From assembly GCA_937870635.1 (NCBI GenBank), contig CALMZP010000147.1, positions 1-64,000 of the forward strand: a DNA stretch of 64,000 bases, given 5' to 3'. A program made the position numbers and the translations under genes. The notes under the pieces were generated by a model that did not search any database, was not told the DNA's origin, and saw nothing but the letters and a program-made list of their open reading frames with translations. Below are positions 6,641-61,899 of this stretch, piece by piece. The DNA comes from an uncultured Acidobacteriota bacterium. Its GTDB lineage: Bacteria > Acidobacteriota > Thermoanaerobaculia > Gp7-AA8. Position 1 is the stretch's first letter; every line of letters starts with the position of its first letter.

Positions 6641-6747
6641 CGGAATGTTGAATGTTGAATGTTCAATGTTGAATGTTCAATGTTCAATGTTCAATGTTGA
6701 AATCGGTTTCAACATTCAACATTCAACATTGAACATTCAACATTCGC
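6641..6747. repeat. Heptamer palindrome (TTGAATG/TTCAATG word)
   Basis: The left arm (6643-6700) has about eight tandem 7-bp units alternating TTGAATG and TTCAATG. The centre is AATCGGTTT. The right arm (6708-6745) has about five complementary units. Transcribed in either direction it would give a long multi-register hairpin. It fills the gap between the GGDEF-EAL gene and the next gene on the same strand. Confidence 0.85.
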
Positions 6748-9402: not shown

Positions 9403-10449
9403 GTCGATATGGACGCATTCTATGCGTCTGTCGAGCAGCGCGACCGCCCCGAGTTGCGCGGCCGGCCGGTGATCGTCGGCTGGCCCGGGCTGCGAAGCGT
9501 CGTGTGCGCCGCTTCTTACGAAGCCCGGAAGTTCGGCGTCCATTCGGCGATGCCGGCCACGCGCGCCATGCGTCTCTGTCCGGAAGGGATCTTCATCCAC
9601 CCCGACTTCGAGCGCTATCGTGCCGTGTCCCATCAGATCCGCGAGATCTTCGAGCGTCACACACCGCTGGTCGAGCCGCTCTCACTGGACGAGGCCTATC
9701 TCGATGTCACAGTGGAGCTGACGGGGATCCCGACCGCGACCGAAGCGGCGGAAACGATTCGCCGGGAGATCCGCAACGAGACGAACCTCACCGCTTCGGC
9801 CGGCGTCGCGCCGAACAAGTTCCTGGCGAAGATCGCCTCCGACTGGCGCAAGCCCGATGGCCTCTTCGTCATCAAGCCGCATCAGATCGAGGCGTTCCTT
9901 CCCCCTCTTCCCGTCCGCAAGCTGCCCGGCGTGGGGAAAGCGACGGAAGCAATCCTGACCGACATGGGCATCGCAACGGTGGGCGACCTGCAACGGTTCG
10001 GTGAGGAAAAACTGATCGAGCGATTCGGAAAATGGGGATCGCGTCTCTACGAGCTGGCTCGCGGCATCGACAACAGCCCCGTCGAGCCTTCGCGGAAGCG
10101 GAAGTCGTGGTCGCGCGAGAACACGTTCGAGACCGATCTCACCCGCGAGGAAGTGGCGGCGTGGATCCGCGAACAGTCGCCCGGGCTATGGGAGTCGCTC
10201 GAAGCGCGCTCGCTGCGGGGCCGCACGGTCACGGTGAAGCTGCGGACGCCCGATTTCAAGACTGCCACCCGCCGCCTCACCCCCGAGCATCCCCCCTCCT
10301 CCGCCGGCGACCTCTGCACGATCGCCCTCGGGTTGCTGGAGAAGTTCGATTTCGGCTCGAACGCGCGCTATCGCCTGGCCGGGATCGGCGTGTCGAATTT
10401 CCCGGAGGAGGAGGGCGAGGAAAAAGTGACGGATCTCTTCGACGGGTAG
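9385..10449 (+). CDS. dinB: DNA polymerase IV (Y-family, DinB)
   Basis: Error-prone translesion polymerase. The 354-residue product contains the first catalytic block HVDMDAFYASVEQRD (D8; aromatic steric-gate residues 12-13), the second block SLDEAYLDV (D102/E103), SAGVAPNKFLAKIASDWRKPDG, a helix-hairpin-helix thumb (LPGVGKATEAIL), and a little-finger domain to the C-terminus. There is no obvious C-terminal beta-clamp motif, though the end (EEGEEKVTDLFDG) includes DLF, which may serve. The start is ATG at 9385. The gene is divergent from the DSD1-like gene with overlapping 5' ends, and its stop lies one base before a heptamer palindrome. Confidence 0.93.
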   Translation: MRKIIHVDMDAFYASVEQRDRPELRGRPVIVGWPGLRSVVCAASYEARKFGVHSAMPATRAMRLCPEGIFIHPDFERYRAVSHQIREIFERHTPLVEPLSLDEAYLDVTVELTGIPTATEAAETIRREIRNETNLTASAGVAPNKFLAKIASDWRKPDGLFVIKPHQIEAFLPPLPVRKLPGVGKATEAILTDMGIATVGDLQRFGEEKLIERFGKWGSRLYELARGIDNSPVEPSRKRKSWSRENTFETDLTREEVAAWIREQSPGLWESLEARSLRGRTVTVKLRTPDFKTATRRLTPEHPPSSAGDLCTIALGLLEKFDFGSNARYRLAGIGVSNFPEEEGEEKVTDLFDG

Positions 10450-10450
10450 C

Positions 10451-10530
10451 TGGATTTTGGATTTTGGATTTTGGATTTTGGATTGGTGGATTGGTCCAAA
10501 TCCAAAATCCAAAATCTAAAATCCAAAATC
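10451..10530. repeat. Heptamer palindrome (GATTTTG word)
   Basis: The left arm (10451-10484) has four to five units of TGGATTT; the right arm (10496-10530) has the complementary CCAAAAT units. The dinB end GACGGG (10441-10446) is itself matched by CCCGTC at 10533-10538, so the palindrome reaches into the coding sequence and includes the stop codon region. Confidence 0.85.
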
Positions 10531-14899: not shown

Positions 14900-14930
14900 C
14901 GCCACGCCTCGAGGCCATAGAAAAAGCGAA

Positions 14931-15015
14931 ATGGTGAATGGTCAATGTTGAATGGTGAATGGTGAATTGGAGTTACTTTCACCACTAACCATTCACCATT
15001 GACCATTCACCATTC
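14931..15015. repeat. Heptamer palindrome (GGTGAAT / GGTCAAT word)
   Basis: The left arm (14931-14968) has GGTGAAT, GGTCAAT and GTTGAAT units; the right arm (14980-15014) has ACCATTC and CACCATT units. It separates the GT4 start from the end of the next radical SAM gene on the same strand and could act as a processing or attenuation signal within the cluster. Confidence 0.82.
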
Positions 15016-15029
15016 CCGTTCCACTCTGA

Positions 15030-16194: not shown

Positions 16195-16305
16195 GTGGAG
16201 CGGCGGGCGATCTCGCCCGCCGATTTGTCGCCCCGCGGGCGGGATCGCCCGCGGCTCCACCAATCCTGCAGACGTGGTGGAGCGCGGGCGACCTCGCCCG
16301 CGCAC
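16195..16305. repeat. Three copies of the GCGGGCGA/TCGCCCGC hairpin element
   Basis: GTGGAGCGGCGGGCGATCTC... at 16195-16222, its inverted copy ending GCGGCTCCAC at 16231-16260, and a third at 16275-16305. Each is a perfect or near-perfect 8-10 bp stem with a 2-nt loop, framed by (G)TGGAGC. Related copies lie at 18923, 24847, 34647 and 45448. Confidence 0.85.
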
Positions 16306-18922: not shown

Positions 18923-18988
18923 AGTGGAGCCGCGGGCGATCTCGCCCGCCGATGCTCGAAGACCGCGGGCGGGATCGCCCGCGGCTCC
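18923..18988. repeat. Inverted pair of GCGGGCGA/TCGCCCGC elements
   Basis: GTGGAGCCGCGGGCGATCTC (18924 on) is mirrored by GGGATCGCCCGCGGCTCC ending at 18988. It lies between two convergent genes and would fold as a large hairpin on either transcript, so it may serve as a bidirectional terminator; no T-run is present. Confidence 0.82.
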
Positions 18989-24845: not shown

Positions 24846-24953
24846 AGACGCGGGCGAGGTCGCCCGCGCTCCATCGTCATCGCATTGGAGCCGCGGGCGA
24901 TCCCGCCCGCGGGCTCTTGATCACGGCGGGCGGGATCGCCCACCGCTCCCCTA
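24846..24953. repeat. Three GCGGGCGA/TCGCCCGC elements between convergent genes
   Basis: Copies at 24847-24872, 24894-24926 and 24930-24950 fill the whole gap between the receiver gene and the TonB receptor gene, which converge here. The last copy ends at the TonB receptor's stop codon. Likely acts as a terminator-like structure on both strands. Confidence 0.82.
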
Positions 24954-28659: not shown

Positions 28660-28758
28660 GTTGGACGTTGGACCTTGGACCCTGGACCTTGGACCTTGGG
28701 AGCACGAATCTCAGCAGGGTCCAGGGTCCAAGGTCCAGGGTCCAGGGTCCAGGGTCTA
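28660..28758. repeat. Heptamer palindrome (TTGGACC / CTGGACC word)
   Basis: The left arm (28661-28701) has about six TTGGACC-type units; the right arm (28716-28757) has six GGTCCAG/GGTCCAA units. It begins two bases after the TrmN6-like stop codon and ends before the SUI1 start. Confidence 0.88.
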
Positions 28759-33923: not shown

Positions 33924-34835
33924 ATGACTGCGCTCGCCGCCCGCAACCTCACGAAAGTCATCGGCGACCGCACGATCGTCGACGACGTCTCCTTCGAGCT
34001 CCAGCCGGGCGAGGTCTTCGGCTTCCTCGGACCCAACGGCGCGGGAAAGACGACGACGATCCGGATGCTCGTCGGCCTCATCCGGCCGACCGCCGGTTCG
34101 GTGGAGATCTGCGGCTTCGACATCCGCCGGGAGTTCGAGAAGGCCATGCGCTGCATCGGCTGCATCGTCGAGAATCCCGACCTCTACCGCTTCATGACCG
34201 GGCGCGAGAATCTCCAGCATTTCTCGCGCATGCTCGGCCTCGACAGGTCGGAGATCGAACGCGTCGCGGAACTCGTCAACCTCGACCACCGCCTCGATCA
34301 GCGCGTCGGCACCTACTCCCTCGGCATGCGCCAACGGCTGGGAATCGCACAGGCGATGCTGGGCAGCCCGCGCGTGCTGATCCTCGACGAGCCGTCGAAC
34401 GGACTCGATCCCGCGGGCATTCGCGAGATCCGCGAGCTGCTGCGGCGTCTGGCCACCGAACGCGGCCTGGCGGTCTTCGTCTCCAGCCACCTCCTCGGCG
34501 AGGTCGAGCTGATGTGCGACCGCGTGGCGATCATTCATCGCGGGCGGATTCTCAAGGATGGGCCGGTGAAAAATCTGATCTCGAACCGTCGGGCGATGGA
34601 ATTCAAGGTCAATGACGTGACACGGGCACTGCGCGTGTTCGAGCAGAGTGGAGCGCGGGCGACCCCGCCCGCGAGCGGCGATCACGCCGTCCTCGTGGCC
34701 ATCGAAGAAGACGACGCCCCCCCGCTCGTGGCATCGCTGGTCCGCGAGGGCATCGAAGTCTTTCACGCCCGCCCGAAGATCCAGACGCTCGAGGAGATGT
34801 TCATCGAAGTAACCGGTGGGGAGACGGTGGATTGA
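33924..34835 (+). CDS. ABC transporter ATP-binding protein
   Basis: ATPase of an ABC-2 type exporter, 303 residues. Walker A GPNGAGKTT (36-44), signature YSLGMRQRLG (131-140), Walker B VLILDEP with the catalytic E156, and the H-loop SSHLLGE (187-193). Residues ~242-251 (SGARATPPAS) are encoded by a copy of the GCGGGCGA hairpin repeat read through in frame, inside the accessory C-terminal domain. The stop TGA is the first triplet of the TGAAGGA array that follows. The membrane partner is the next gene, 220 bp downstream. Confidence 0.92.
   Translation: MTALAARNLTKVIGDRTIVDDVSFELQPGEVFGFLGPNGAGKTTTIRMLVGLIRPTAGSVEICGFDIRREFEKAMRCIGCIVENPDLYRFMTGRENLQHFSRMLGLDRSEIERVAELVNLDHRLDQRVGTYSLGMRQRLGIAQAMLGSPRVLILDEPSNGLDPAGIREIRELLRRLATERGLAVFVSSHLLGEVELMCDRVAIIHRGRILKDGPVKNLISNRRAMEFKVNDVTRALRVFEQSGARATPPASGDHAVLVAIEEDDAPPLVASLVREGIEVFHARPKIQTLEEMFIEVTGGETVD
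34647..34676. repeat. GCGGGCGA-type hairpin element inside a coding sequence
   Basis: AGTGGAGCGCGGGCGACCCC followed by GCCCGCGAG matches the intergenic element at 16275 and 45448, including the GTGGAGC lead. It sits in frame within the ABC ATPase gene and adds about ten residues without breaking the frame. Confidence 0.75.
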
Positions 34836-35048
34836 AGGATGAAGGATGAAGGATGAAGGATGAAGGATGAAGGATGAAGGATGAAGGATGAAGGAGATGG
34901 GCCAGGCACGTCATCCTGAGCTGGTAAGACAGCGAAGGACCTCAACATGCGCAACCTGAGGTCCTTCGGCGTCTCCGCGCCTCAGGATGACGTGAACTTC
35001 ATCCTTCATCCTTCATCCTTCATCCTTCATCCTTCATCCTTCATCCTT
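34833..35048. repeat. Nested palindrome: TGAAGGA array around a REP-like hairpin
   Basis: The left arm is nine tandem TGAAGGA units (34833-34895). The core at 34908-34994 is the CGTCATCCTGAG hairpin (AAGGACCTCAACATGCGCAA mirrored by CCTGAGGTCCTT). The right arm is about seven TTCATCC units (34998-35048), complementary to the left. It spans the whole gap between ABC ATPase and permease genes, which are probably co-transcribed, so the structure lies inside one mRNA. Confidence 0.9.
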
Positions 35049-35055
35049 TAACAAA

Positions 35056-36027
35056 ATGCTCAACCTGATCGAAAACGAGAGCCTGAAGCTTCTTCGCCGC
35101 CGGCGGTTCCTCATCGTCGTGGCGATCCTCTTCGTCATCATGACGCTCGTCTCGTACTCGCAGTACCGGCAGCTCAGGCAGGGCCGCAACGAGAACTGGC
35201 GCGCCGAGTTGCAGGAACGGATTGCGCGATACGAGAACCGCCTGCGCCGCGGACGCATGAACGAGTCGTGGTCGCGCTCGATGAGGGCGGAAATGCGCCG
35301 GCTCCAGTTCTATCTCGACCGCGGGATCAATCCCGAAGCGCCGACGGCGCCGCTGGTGGTGAGGACCTTCGCCAATGCCGCCGGCTTCCTCCTCCTGCCA
35401 CTGCTGATCTCTGTCCTCGGCGCCGACATCGTCTCCGCGGAGAACGCCGAGGGGACGGACAAGCTGCTGCTCACGCGGCCGGTACGAAGGTGGAAGATCC
35501 TCCTATCGAAGCTGCTGACGTTGTGGATGTTCGCGTCGATCACCCTCCTGACTGGCGGAGCGCTGTCCTGGCTCGTCACCGCGCCGGTGCTTCCGGCCGG
35601 TGGATGGGATGCGCCGATGTTCAACGGCTTCGCATTCGGTGGAGATCAGTTTCACATCGAGAGCGTTCGGGAGCTGCCGCTCTGGAAGGACGCTCTCATC
35701 GCGTACGGTCTGGAGTGGTACGCGCTGATCGCAGTGGGATCGATCGCGCTGCTGCTGTCGGTGATCTTCAAGTCGAGCGCGGCGTCCATCGGAACGATGC
35801 TGGCCTCGCTCATCGGCGGAACGATCCTCACCCGCATCAGCCCGGACTGGACCGCAGGCAAGTATCTCTTCGTCAGCGCGCTTCCCCTGGCCGACTACTA
35901 CACCGGGCAGCTTCCGCCCTACGAAGGCATGACCATGGCCTTCTGCATCACTCTCCTCGGGGTGTGGGCGGCGGTGGCAATCGGCGTCGCTTTTGTCATC
36001 TACACGCGCAAGGACGTCTTTGGGTGA
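35056..36027 (+). CDS. ABC-2 type transporter permease
   Basis: Inner-membrane partner of the upstream ATPase, 323 residues. One N-terminal helix (~20-38) is followed by a ~90-residue charged periplasmic or cytoplasmic loop (RQGRNENWRAELQERIARYE...), then five to six helices with the typical GADIVSAENAEGTDKLLLTRPVRRW segment of NatB/ABC-2 exporters. The start ATG at 35056 follows directly on the repeat array without a visible ribosome binding site. The TGA stop overlaps the next heptamer array by two bases. Confidence 0.87.
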   Translation: MLNLIENESLKLLRRRRFLIVVAILFVIMTLVSYSQYRQLRQGRNENWRAELQERIARYENRLRRGRMNESWSRSMRAEMRRLQFYLDRGINPEAPTAPLVVRTFANAAGFLLLPLLISVLGADIVSAENAEGTDKLLLTRPVRRWKILLSKLLTLWMFASITLLTGGALSWLVTAPVLPAGGWDAPMFNGFAFGGDQFHIESVRELPLWKDALIAYGLEWYALIAVGSIALLLSVIFKSSAASIGTMLASLIGGTILTRISPDWTAGKYLFVSALPLADYYTGQLPPYEGMTMAFCITLLGVWAAVAIGVAFVIYTRKDVFG

Positions 36028-36088
36028 TTTTGGATTTTGGATTTTGGATTCCCCCCGCCCCAAAATCCAAAATCCAAAATCCAAAATC
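36026..36088. repeat. Heptamer palindrome (GATTTTG word)
   Basis: The left arm (36026-36050) has three to four GATTTTG units, starting within the permease stop codon; the right arm (36060-36088) has four CCAAAAT units. Same word as the palindrome at 10451. Confidence 0.87.
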
Positions 36089-38665: not shown

Positions 38666-38770
38666 GTCCTGGTGTCAGGTCTGGAAAAACAACTTTTCTC
38701 CCAATAGTGGTGTGCTTTGGCCGCACCACTATTGGAAGAAAGGTTGTTTTTCCAGACCTGACACCAGGAC
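38666..38770. mobile_element. MITE-like inverted-repeat element, copy 1
   Basis: Perfect ~28-bp terminal repeats starting GTCCTGGTGTCAGGTCTGGA and ending in the complement ACACCAGGAC, with a second inner stem CCAATAGTGGTG/CACCACTATTGG and a short loop CTTTGGC. No coding capacity. The outer ~35 bp of each arm are shared with copy 2 at 52933, while the inner stem differs. It lies between typA and the second TonB receptor. Confidence 0.85.
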
Positions 38771-38828: not shown

Positions 38829-41201
38829 ATGGCTCGTGTCCTCGTCCCCCTCGTCTCCCTTCTCTTCGCCAGCATCAGCCTGGCCCAGGATCCCCCGAAG
38901 GAACCGGAGAAACCGAAAGACCCGACCGCGCCGGTCGTGATGGTCATCGAGGTCGGCAGCCGCGCCGCCGAGCGATCGCGCACCGATACGCCGGTGCCGG
39001 TCGATGTCCTCCCCATCAGCGAGATTGCCGATGAAGCGGGGCACCTGGATGTCGGGCAGCTCCTGCAGTTCACCGCGCCGTCGTTCAACGCGAACCGGCA
39101 GTCGGGCTCCGACGGCAGCGATCACGTCGACGCCGCGACTCTGCGAGGCCTCGGCCCCGACCAGGTTCTGGTGCTGATCAACGGCAAGCGGCGGCACTCG
39201 TCTTCGCTCGTTTACATCTTCGGCACGCGGGCCCGCGGAAACGTCGGCACGGACTTGAACACGATTCCGGTCAGCGCGATCGATCGCATCGAGATCCTCC
39301 GCGACGGGGCCTCGGCGCAGTACGGATCCGACGCGATTGCCGGCGTCATCAACATCATCCTCAAGAAGGACCGGGGGATGAACGTTCTCCTTTCGGCCGG
39401 CCAGTACACGGCCGGCGACGGCGAGAATCTTCAGGTCGCCGTCAACTACGGCGTCCCCGTGGGCCGCGGAGCGCTCAATCTCACCGGGGAAGTATTGAAT
39501 CGCGAGGCGACGAACCGCGCCACGCCTGACGAGCCTCGCATCATCGGCGACGCGGAAACCGAGAACCTCACGTTCTTTTACAACCTCGACGTTCCCGTAG
39601 GCTCAGCGTCGACGTTCTACGGCCACGGTGGTTACAACGACCGCAATGGCCTGGCTGGCGCGTGGTATCGCGGCGGCGTCGGCTCCGATGACATTCCATC
39701 GCGGAATTCCGAACAGATGTATCCGGATGGATTCGTTCCGAATATCGGTACGACCATCGAAGACCTGTCCGCCGCGTTCGGCTTCCGGACTCTGCTGGGC
39801 GCCTGGTCGATGGACATCAGTTCGACGTACGGCTCGAACGAGATGGCCTATCAGATCAGGGACACCCTGAACGCCTCGATCGCGACGCGGAACAACGGCA
39901 TCTCGCCGACCGAGTTCGACGCCGGCGGGTTCGAATTCAGCCAGCACACTACGAACCTCGACTTTTCCCGCTTCTACCAGCAGTGGCTGCGCGGTGTGAA
40001 TGTCGCGGCTGGCGCCGAGTACCGGCGCGAGACGTATGGCATCTTCGCCGGTGAGGAAGGCTCGTACGCCGACTTTGACGGCCCCGGCGGCGGCAATGCC
40101 GGATCGCAGGGTTTCCCGGGATTTCAGCCCGTCGACGAGGTGGACGCGAGCCGCAACAGCACAGCGGTCTACGCGGACCTCGAGATGCAGACGACCCCTC
40201 GGCTCCTTCTCACGGCCGCGCTGCGCGCCGAGGATTACAGCGACTTCGGAAATACCCTGAACGGAAAAGTGTCGTTCGGGTACGCCGTGCATCAGGCTCT
40301 TCACTTCCGCGGCTCGGCAAGCACGGGTTTCCGAGCGCCGTCTCTTCACCAGCGATACTTCAGCTCGACATTCACCGACTTCATTGCCGGCGAGGCCGCT
40401 GACATCAAGCTCGCGCCGAACGCGAGCGAGCTCGCGCACCTGGTCGGAATCCCCGAGCTGAAGGAAGAAGAGTCCATGAACTATTCGCTCGGTTTCACGT
40501 GGGCTCCCCGGCCGGCGCTCGACCTGACGCTCGATGCCTATCAGATCGACATCGACGACCGCATCGTTCTCACCGGAGGATTCACCACCGACGACCCCGA
40601 CATCGGTCACATCATCGCCGCGCAGAACCTGGTCGAGGCACGTTTCTTCACCAATGCGATCGACACGCAGACGCGCGGCCTCGACCTCACCGCGGGACAC
40701 AGGCGTCCGCTCGGCTCCGGCCAGCTCACGACGACCGCCGCCCTCAATTTCAACGAGACGGATGTCAAGCGCATCAACACCGCGCCCGGCCTGGCCGGCA
40801 AGGAATCGATCTATTTCAACATGCGTGAGCGCATGTTCGTCGAAGGATCCGCCCCGAAAACGAAGGGGACACTCGGATTTGATTTCGATCGAACACGCTG
40901 GAACAGCGGCCTCCGCGTCATTTACTTCGGGAGCCTGGAGTCAGGGACCTGGACGCAGATCGACGATCCGGCCGCGCCCCCGCAGCGTTACGACGCCCGT
41001 TTCACGGCTGACGTTCACGTCGGGTTCAAGGTCGCCCCCAATCTGCACTGGACAGTCGGCGGCACGAACATTTTCGACGCGCAGCCCACCGAGCAGGATC
41101 CGTTCGAAACCGAGAACGGAGCTCTGTGGGAGAACGTTCAGATGGGCATCAATGGAGCCGCGTACTACACGAGACTGAGCTGGAAGATGCCTGCTCGCTG
41201 A
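38829..41201 (+). CDS. TonB-dependent outer-membrane receptor
   Basis: A 790-residue receptor: signal peptide (MARVLVPLVSLLFASISLA), Pro/Lys-rich linker, a plug (~50-190) with DVGQLLQFTAPSFNANRQSG, TLRGLGPDQVLVLINGKRRH and RIEILRDGASAQYGSDAIAG, and a long beta barrel ending AYYTRLSWKMPAR. The plug 'NGKRRH...GT..R..VGTDLNTIP' pattern is that of receptors for uncharacterised organic substrates, so the cargo is unknown. The start ATG at 38829 has GGAGG six bases before it. Free-standing; it follows the MITE-like element. Confidence 0.9.
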   Translation: MARVLVPLVSLLFASISLAQDPPKEPEKPKDPTAPVVMVIEVGSRAAERSRTDTPVPVDVLPISEIADEAGHLDVGQLLQFTAPSFNANRQSGSDGSDHVDAATLRGLGPDQVLVLINGKRRHSSSLVYIFGTRARGNVGTDLNTIPVSAIDRIEILRDGASAQYGSDAIAGVINIILKKDRGMNVLLSAGQYTAGDGENLQVAVNYGVPVGRGALNLTGEVLNREATNRATPDEPRIIGDAETENLTFFYNLDVPVGSASTFYGHGGYNDRNGLAGAWYRGGVGSDDIPSRNSEQMYPDGFVPNIGTTIEDLSAAFGFRTLLGAWSMDISSTYGSNEMAYQIRDTLNASIATRNNGISPTEFDAGGFEFSQHTTNLDFSRFYQQWLRGVNVAAGAEYRRETYGIFAGEEGSYADFDGPGGGNAGSQGFPGFQPVDEVDASRNSTAVYADLEMQTTPRLLLTAALRAEDYSDFGNTLNGKVSFGYAVHQALHFRGSASTGFRAPSLHQRYFSSTFTDFIAGEAADIKLAPNASELAHLVGIPELKEEESMNYSLGFTWAPRPALDLTLDAYQIDIDDRIVLTGGFTTDDPDIGHIIAAQNLVEARFFTNAIDTQTRGLDLTAGHRRPLGSGQLTTTAALNFNETDVKRINTAPGLAGKESIYFNMRERMFVEGSAPKTKGTLGFDFDRTRWNSGLRVIYFGSLESGTWTQIDDPAAPPQRYDARFTADVHVGFKVAPNLHWTVGGTNIFDAQPTEQDPFETENGALWENVQMGINGAAYYTRLSWKMPAR

Positions 41202-41237
41202 CAGCCGGCAGGGGCCTGCGCGAAACGCTGCTTCAGG

Positions 41238-41340
41238 GAAGACGGGGATGATGAATGTTCAATGTTGAATGTTCAATGTTGAATGTTGAATGAAGTCGGT
41301 TTCAACATTGAACATTCACCATTCACCATTCCCGTCTTCC
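41238..41340. repeat. Heptamer palindrome (TTGAATG word) with unique inverted flanks
   Basis: The left arm (41250-41294) has six units; the right arm (41300-41332) has four to five. The unique sequences just outside, GGAAGACGGG (41238-41247) and CCCGTCTTCC (41331-41340), are also exact reverse complements, so the palindrome extends past the array. It lies between two convergent genes. Confidence 0.87.
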
Positions 41341-41381
41341 CTCTCGTCCCCCCTCCGAACTTGCCTCTTCCCTCCCCGCTC

Positions 41382-41921
41382 CTACCCCACCCTGTGCTCG
41401 TGAATGACCCCATTCACCGCTTCGTCGCCCACGGTCATGTACAGATGCTTCTCCACCACGGAGAGAGACATCTTCATGCGGCGGTCGAAATGCGCGACCA
41501 GGCCGTCGATGAATGGGCGGTCGAATGAGTAGACCGGCATCTCCTCGACGCGATGAATCTTCTTCCCTTCGAGCTGGCCGAGAAGGTTGCGGATGTCGCG
41601 ATGCGTATAGACGGCGACGCGGCCGGCGAGCTTGCTGGCGCGATGTAAGCGATCGGCGTCCGGCATCCCCACCTCGATCCACGCGGTGATGCGACCCGTG
41701 AGATCGCGGACCACGATGGCCGGCTCGTCACCGTTGGAGAGTCCGGCAGTGAACTCGATGCCCTCCTCCCACTCGAGGCAGTAAGCGAGGAGGCGCGTGG
41801 CCATGTACTCCGCCGTCTCGGAGGGGTGCATCGCCAGGCGAAGGTCGAGTGTCTGATAGACGCCGCGATCGACGTCGGAGACCTCGATCGAGACGTTGTA
41901 CATCGTCGATGTGAGCGCCAT
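41382..41921 (-). CDS. yaeQ: YaeQ family protein
   Basis: A 179-residue cytoplasmic protein of the YaeQ family, with a nuclease-like (PD-(D/E)XK) fold. It begins MALTSTMYNVSIEVSDVDRG and has the conserved LDLRLAMHPSETAEYMATRL, EWEEGIEFTAGLSNGDEPAI and ITAWIEVGMPDADRLHRAS blocks. E. coli YaeQ was linked to RfaH suppression; the real activity is unsettled. The ATG at 41921 was chosen over the longer frame to 42002. Divergent from the EVE-domain gene. Confidence 0.9.
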   Translation of the reverse strand: MALTSTMYNVSIEVSDVDRGVYQTLDLRLAMHPSETAEYMATRLLAYCLEWEEGIEFTAGLSNGDEPAIVVRDLTGRITAWIEVGMPDADRLHRASKLAGRVAVYTHRDIRNLLGQLEGKKIHRVEEMPVYSFDRPFIDGLVAHFDRRMKMSLSVVEKHLYMTVGDEAVNGVIHEHRVG

Positions 41922-42916: not shown

Positions 42917-43081
42917 CCGTTAACCGTTAACCGCGGCGAGTGTAGCCCAGACGTCATCCTGAGGCGCGCAGACGCCGAAGGATCTCAAAATGCGATTCAC
43001 GTGCTTTGAGGCCCTTCGCCGTCTTCGCGGCTCAGGGTGACGTGCTTGCCACGGACTTCGTTAACGGTGAACGGTGAACGT
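42904..43081. repeat. Nested palindrome: GTTAACC array around a REP-like hairpin
   Basis: The left arm GTTAGCC, GTTAACC x3 (42905-42933); the core CGTCATCCTGAGGCGCGCAG... to ...GGCTCAGGGTGACGTG (42951-43043), same family as at 32813; the right arm CGTTAACGGTGAACGGTGAACG (43059-43080). The stop codons of the genes on both sides touch or lie inside the arms. Confidence 0.88.
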
Positions 43082-52932: not shown

Positions 52933-53044
52933 GGTGTCATGGTGTCAGGTCTGGAAAAACAACTTTTCTTCCATTAGTGAAGCGTCGGAGACGCGTTCAC
53001 TAATGGAAGAAAAGTTGTTTTTCCAGACCTGACACCATGACACC
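52933..53044. mobile_element. MITE-like inverted-repeat element, copy 2
   Basis: GGTGTCATGGTGTCAGGTCT... mirrored by ...AGACCTGACACCATGACACC, with the shared arm GGTGTCAGGTCTGGAAAAAC then AACTTTTCTTCCA. The inner stem ATTAGTGAA/TTCACTAAT and the loop differ from copy 1. It fills the gap between the DUF3267 start codon and the ftsK stop codon exactly. Confidence 0.86.
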
Positions 53045-56885: not shown

Positions 56886-56962
56886 GAGAGGCGGAAATGT
56901 TGAATGTTCATGTTGAAAAACAACTTCAACATTCAACATTGAACATTCAACATTCCGCCTCT
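56886..56962. repeat. Heptamer palindrome (TTGAATG word) with unique inverted flanks
   Basis: The arms are AATGTTGAATGTTCATGTTG and CAACTTCAACATTCAACATT plus further units. The unique flanks GAGAGGCGGAA (56886-56896) and TTCCGCCTCTC (56952-56962) are exact reverse complements. The right flank ends two bases before the mutase stop codon. Confidence 0.87.
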
Positions 56963-56964
56963 CT

Positions 56965-61798: not shown

Positions 61799-61899
61799 GG
61801 GACCTTGGACAAGGGACCTTGGACCTTGGACCTTGGGAGGCCACCAACCCGCCCGTGCGGCGTCGCTCCCAAGGTCCAAGGTCCAGGGTCCAAGGTCCT
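61799..61899. repeat. Heptamer palindrome (TTGGACC word) abutting the alaS stop
   Basis: The left arm (61800-61838) has GACCTTG units; the right arm (61870-61898) has CCAAGGT/CCAGGGT units. On the minus strand the alaS TAG stop is directly followed by GACCTTGGACC. The sequence ATAGGGACC at the left end mirrors GGTCCTA at the stop codon. Confidence 0.87.

Follow-up and report, generated by a model that had tools for sequence, protein, structure and literature searches.

Arrays of seven-base units are over-represented in bacteria, and we know of no explanation for why the unit should have seven bases or for what spreads such arrays. The cyanobacterial STRR sequences, associated with Mazel et al. 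(in 1990), are reportedly heptanucleotide repeats in which period 7 dominates. Heptanucleotide simple repeats in bacteria also include TAACTGA of Beggiatoaceae, with period 7 again dominant (PMC4679880). In Xanthomonas, the heptamer GGGAATC forms about 185 arrays and 70–75 inverted pairs (PMC4692102). For inverted repeats in general, inversion of the loop has been described as a mark of template switching from one arm to the other (PMC8604942, PMC8794818).

The hairpin described here lies in a window of 64,000 nucleotides (the whole stretch that was analysed) from an uncultured Acidobacteriota bacterium. It occupies positions 41235–41342 (108 nt) and its computed fold is −60.2 kcal/mol (z −8.5). 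The left outer stem AGGGAAGACGGG (41235–41246, plus strand), a variant of the purine tract–CGG end of the TTGAATG family, is followed by the left array (41247–41292, plus strand) with the units GATG, ATGAATG, TTCAATG, TTGAATG, TTCAATG, TTGAATG and TTGAATG, of which GATG ATGAATG represents a mutated unit. The loop (41293–41302, no strand) separates it from the right array (41303–41330, minus strand; CAACATT, GAACATT, CACCATT and CACCATT), and the right outer stem CCCGTCTTCCCT (41331–41342, minus strand) is the exact complement of the left one in 12 of 12 positions. The complementary words reported in the original prediction are thus real and even longer than claimed, 12 bp instead of 10 bp. The hairpin lies between two convergent genes, a TonB-dependent receptor gene (38829–41201, plus strand), which ends 33 nt before it, and a YaeQ gene (41382–41903, minus strand), which ends 39 nt after it. 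Two of the three relatives of the receptor are from Acidobacteriota (Holophagae, Sulfidibacter). A TonB receptor gene beside YaeQ was not found in the relatives, hence no ortholog of this locus was located, and no Rfam RNA family was found in the window. The hairpin is probably one copy of a dispersed intergenic element with arms built of 7-base words (TTGAATG, TTCAATG, GTGAATG) and a family-specific outer stem at its base.

Tandem arrays with units of 2–15 nt were counted in 1.12 Mb of the 4.52-Mb draft genome. Period 7 was found in 300 arrays and every other period in 1–4 arrays each, although these densities are not unbiased because the sample was taken partly around TTGAATG hits; a further 80 arrays scored as period 14 are doubled sevens. 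An inverted partner lies close by for 224 of the 300 arrays, which group into 209 loci, 141 of them palindromic. The array words include GATTTTG, TTGAATG, TTGGACC, GTTAACC, GATGAAC and GGATGAA, among others. With their intergenic location and their excess of 7-base tandem units, these arrays are heptameric simple-sequence repeats. The complete TTGAATG element, including its ends, has dozens of further matches in the genome at about 80–90%. The outer stem and the arms form terminal inverted repeats such as those which characterize MITEs. Three Y1_Tnp genes are present in the genome. No transposase or target-site duplication was linked to the hairpin elements. Three pairs of empty and occupied sites displayed no clean target-site duplication, and the empty sites could be deletions.

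The prevalence of period 7 over other unit lengths is shared with TAACTGA of Beggiatoaceae (PMC4679880) and with the cyanobacterial STRR; these are, however, direct arrays, as a rule without an inverted partner, whereas inverted pairs were found here. The similarity to GGGAATC of Xanthomonas extends to intergenic 7-base arrays, many inverted pairs, a position closer to the end of the upstream gene and the lack of conservation at the same genes between species (PMC4692102). In contrast to the single G-rich word of Xanthomonas, at least six words occur in one genome here, and the hairpins are long and near-perfect, have family-specific outer stems and undergo word replacement at orthologous sites. 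Like REPs, the GTAG/CGTC-tagged extragenic palindromes, they are dispersed intergenic palindromes, but they are longer (80–120 bp), with arms made of tandem arrays and symmetric paired ends (PMC3733652). The unpaired tetranucleotide tag of REPs at one end is absent, since the listed flanks are symmetric and have no constant one-sided tag. As far as literature searches show, it is new that so many words occur, that the hairpins have outer stems and that one word replaces another at orthologous sites, while inverted heptamer pairs were already known from Xanthomonas (PMC4692102).

Several related hairpins, none with an assigned strand, are present in the window. A methylmalonyl-CoA mutase gene on the minus strand has the TTGAATG hairpin at 56886–56963 directly 3′ of its stop codon, and the hairpin's mirrored ends GAGAGGCGGAA (56886–56896) and TTCCGCCTCTC (56953–56963) are complementary over 11 bp, as had been predicted. 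The ends of the TTGAATG hairpin at 6643–6745 are mirrored in part only, and a TTGAATG/GTGAATG hairpin (14930–15017) lies 3′ of a radical-SAM gene (minus strand). GATTTTG hairpins were found immediately 3′ of dinB (10451–10530) and between codirectional genes, with the start at the stop codon (36026–36088). Such GATTTTG hairpins (about 50 loci) often span the whole gap, from the stop codon up to a point about 19 nt short of the following start. TTGGACC hairpins are located at 28660–28756 and 61814–61898, and GGATGAA arrays at 34833–35048 are mirrored about a CGTCATCCTGAG palindrome.

Palindromes of other families were also observed. A second family, GGTGTCAGGTCTGGAAAAACAACTTTTCTTCC, with near-perfect arms of 47–49 nt, is represented in the window at 38666–38770 and 52933–53044 and elsewhere by L032:9036–9139, and further copies are dispersed over the genome. 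A third dispersed family, CGTCATCCTGAG...CTCAGGATGACG, occurs at 42951–43043 and at 34907–34994, the latter copy within the GGATGAA arrays, and has many copies in the genomes G000, G008 and G010. The fourth family, GGAGCCGCGGGCGATCTCGCCCGC (16195–16260, 18926–18988 and 24887–24949), is GC-rich and not heptameric. Head-in TTGAATG hairpins, in which the arrays form the outer part and CCCGTC/GACGGG words lie at the loop, were seen at L034:5668–5770, L036:13528, L041:14949, L073:10019 and L089:11923.

The mirrored flanks had been taken for unique DNA, which they are not. The left outer stem of the TTGAATG family consists of a purine tract and CGG or CGA followed by the first AATG, and the right one is its complement (CATT, CCG and a pyrimidine tract). 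Variants resembling CCCGTCTCTC occur across the family in this genome, with a consensus common to 36–46 of its own loci, and CGCTTTTC-like ends are present at the corresponding position in two other genera. Ends of the type AAAAGCG/CGCTTTT were found in 20 loci of G017 and G013 (another genus) and G014 (a third genus). Since the outer stem is shared across the family and with two other genera, the flanks are family ends, and the mirrored DNA is mainly the element's own end. The prediction itself had named the recurrence of the flank-array-flank unit elsewhere in the genome as the observation that would speak against it; this unit was found to be dispersed both within the organism's own genome and in further genera of its family.

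Orthologous sites were compared in three species of one genus (G017, G013 and G004), with compared flanks mostly 75–90% identical. When 18 TTGAATG hairpins were traced between G017 and G013, eight were kept, a hairpin of another word was present in six cases, a direct array in one and none in three. The words at orthologous sites of the three species were TTGAATG, AGGCAGA, GGATGAA, CACAGAG and GGGAGTC, usually just 3′ of the stop codon. At L186:9338, TTGAATG (G017), AGGCAGA (G013) and GGATGAA (G004) correspond to each other; TTGAATG of G013 corresponds to GGGAGTC of G017 at L183:13699 and to CACAGAG of G017 at L124. In the G013 ortholog of L114:556, the outer TTGAATG units are kept and a GGGAGTC hairpin is nested inside, which makes it a plausible replacement intermediate. 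Swaps at 6 of 10 non-identical sites compare with a background of 15–17% of gaps of at least 60 nt filled by hairpins of other kinds in G017 and G013 (p about 0.003), but this excess is only suggestive because two of the six were judged by eye; the four strict swaps alone gave p about 0.07. The site behind the mutase stop codon, with TTGAATG here, is occupied in other genera by CACAGAG hairpins, by CGTCATCCTGAG-like ones or by others. One orthologous GGGAGTC hairpin (L179:18450 in G017, L173:13354 in G013) has identical left arms and right arms with ACTCCCG and ACACCCG, respectively, in all three units, i.e. whole-arm homogenisation in one arm only.

The hairpins are placed preferentially behind genes. 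In codirectional gaps, the upstream stop codon is the nearer one in 60 of 74 cases (median distance 6.5 vs 58.5 nt), and most GATTTTG arrays begin no more than 10 nt from a stop codon. This location, together with the exchange of hairpins at orthologous 3′ ends, the very stable fold and the purine/pyrimidine outer stems, which, like AAAAGC...GCTTTT in the relatives, are similar to terminator A/U tracts, would be consistent with functional 3′-end structures that either act as bidirectional terminators or protect the 3′ ends of mRNA. Selection would then keep a hairpin of any word, and paired changes on the two sides of the outer stem would be compensatory. We consider such a function an unlikely explanation. 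The hairpins are distributed over convergent, codirectional and divergent gaps in background proportions, with no avoidance of divergent gaps and no enrichment of convergent ones, and G-U mismatches on the transcribed (sense) strand are not in excess over A-C mismatches (17 vs 20); both results speak against a plain terminator function, short of excluding it. A simple terminator scan detected no terminator-like site here, although its loop limit of 3–8 is too tight for these hairpins, and the tail of the hairpin is C/T-rich rather than a run of T. Moreover, the stop-proximal placement is also expected if insertions near promoters get removed.

According to the original prediction, the mirrored flanks and paired arms arose by hairpin-templated copying, in which replication switches template between the arms and rewrites one arm and the adjoining DNA as the complement of the other. 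The flanks provide part of the support for it. When the sequences flanking the arrays were tested against shuffled partners from the same word family, matches of at least 10/12 were observed at two loci (12/12 at this locus, the extreme among 36 TTGAATG loci, and 10/12 at L081), whereas 0.37 were expected. Within-locus coupling beyond the TTGAATG consensus had p values of 0.0012 (31 loci, runs), 0.023 (46 loci) and 0.03 and 0.22 (36 loci in register), so that the shuffled partners were surpassed in three of four scorings. On the other hand, no such excess was found in the GATTTTG (51 loci) and TTGGACC (15 loci) families, the two most common ones besides TTGAATG, or in 20 loci of the relatives G017, G013 and G014 (p = 0.81). 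The coupling of left and right flanks past the family consensus is therefore weak and only marginal, and the flanks at this locus may also have been homogenised locally. Here, the two outermost left units, GATG and ATGAATG, are mismatched to the right arm, whereas the DNA outside them matches, which speaks against such copying.

The arms themselves speak against general copying. Own arms were no closer to each other than to arms of other loci (TTGAATG p = 0.62, GATTTTG p = 0.23, TTGGACC p = 0.08), and unit-by-unit mirroring of the TTGAATG/TTCAATG order, counted from the loop, was at the chance level (p = 0.79). The decayed G004 ortholog of L114:556 has private, unmirrored changes in each arm. 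In favour of copying, rare units (GTGAATG, GTGAGTG, TTAAATG) are shared by the two arms of a locus more often than expected (p = 0.0002), although either occasional exchange or common descent of a subfamily would produce such sharing. At L110:12852, G017 and G013 have the loop TGAGGAGACGAA in opposite orientations but agree in the orientation of the two outer flanks; this was the case in one of seven ortholog pairs inspected by eye and is as expected if the arms undergo template switching or recombine with each other. The exchange between arms and the loop inversion at one ortholog pair resemble quasi-palindrome template switching, from which the hairpins differ by the absence of general arm homogenisation (PMC8604942, PMC8794818, PMC7202029). 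Hairpin-templated copying thus appears to happen at times but is not the general cause of mirrored flanks, and as the main explanation of this locus it seems improbable.

Chance or a reading bias, by which purine-rich left and pyrimidine-rich right flanks favour complementary runs and the longest of many is picked, is very improbable: the family flanks are indeed nearly two-letter (R/Y) sequences, with matches of at least 8/12 in 4 of 36 loci vs 2.5 expected, but the 12/12 match here and the 11 bp at 56886 lie above the expected level, and the R/Y asymmetry in turn requires an explanation, namely the family end. Both matches also exceed random DNA, since complementary runs of at least 10 were obtained at random spots of the window in 0.2% of trials and those of at least 12 in 0.1%. 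The 6-bp pair GACGGG/CCCGTC adduced at dinB does exist, but it is a chance match; it belongs to the GATTTTG family, and GACGGG (10441–10446) represents the last two dinB codons (...GAC GGG TAG), i.e. coding DNA.

We therefore prefer the dispersed hairpin element as the explanation of 41235–41342. The established features are the family with its shared ends, period 7, placement behind stop codons, orthologous sites both with and without the element, word replacement, one nesting and one loop inversion. Copies of the element would spread from locus to locus by ectopic copying or transposition, and the units within each arm would turn over through slippage, largely independently. The arms may occasionally exchange material via template switching or recombination. 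A hairpin with a newer word might land within an older one and then take over the site, and hairpins at gene 3′ ends could be tolerated, or useful. The 12/12 match at this locus is rarer than the family consensus predicts and counts against the dispersed-element explanation, as does the lack of a linked transposase or target-site duplication.

Mirroring of palindrome flanks needs a control against the family consensus before it is read as template switching. It is conceivable, though doubtful at present, that members of this bacterial family have site-conserved hairpins at their gene 3′ ends, with the 7-base word swapped wholesale between species via nesting and subsequent takeover, which would be neither ordinary transposition nor simple slippage. 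A single genome contains many heptamers in one hairpin architecture, and its relatives swap the words at the same gene ends. Owing to this word replacement in relatives, including the nested intermediate and the loop inversion, strain comparison can test how such repeats arise and turn over.
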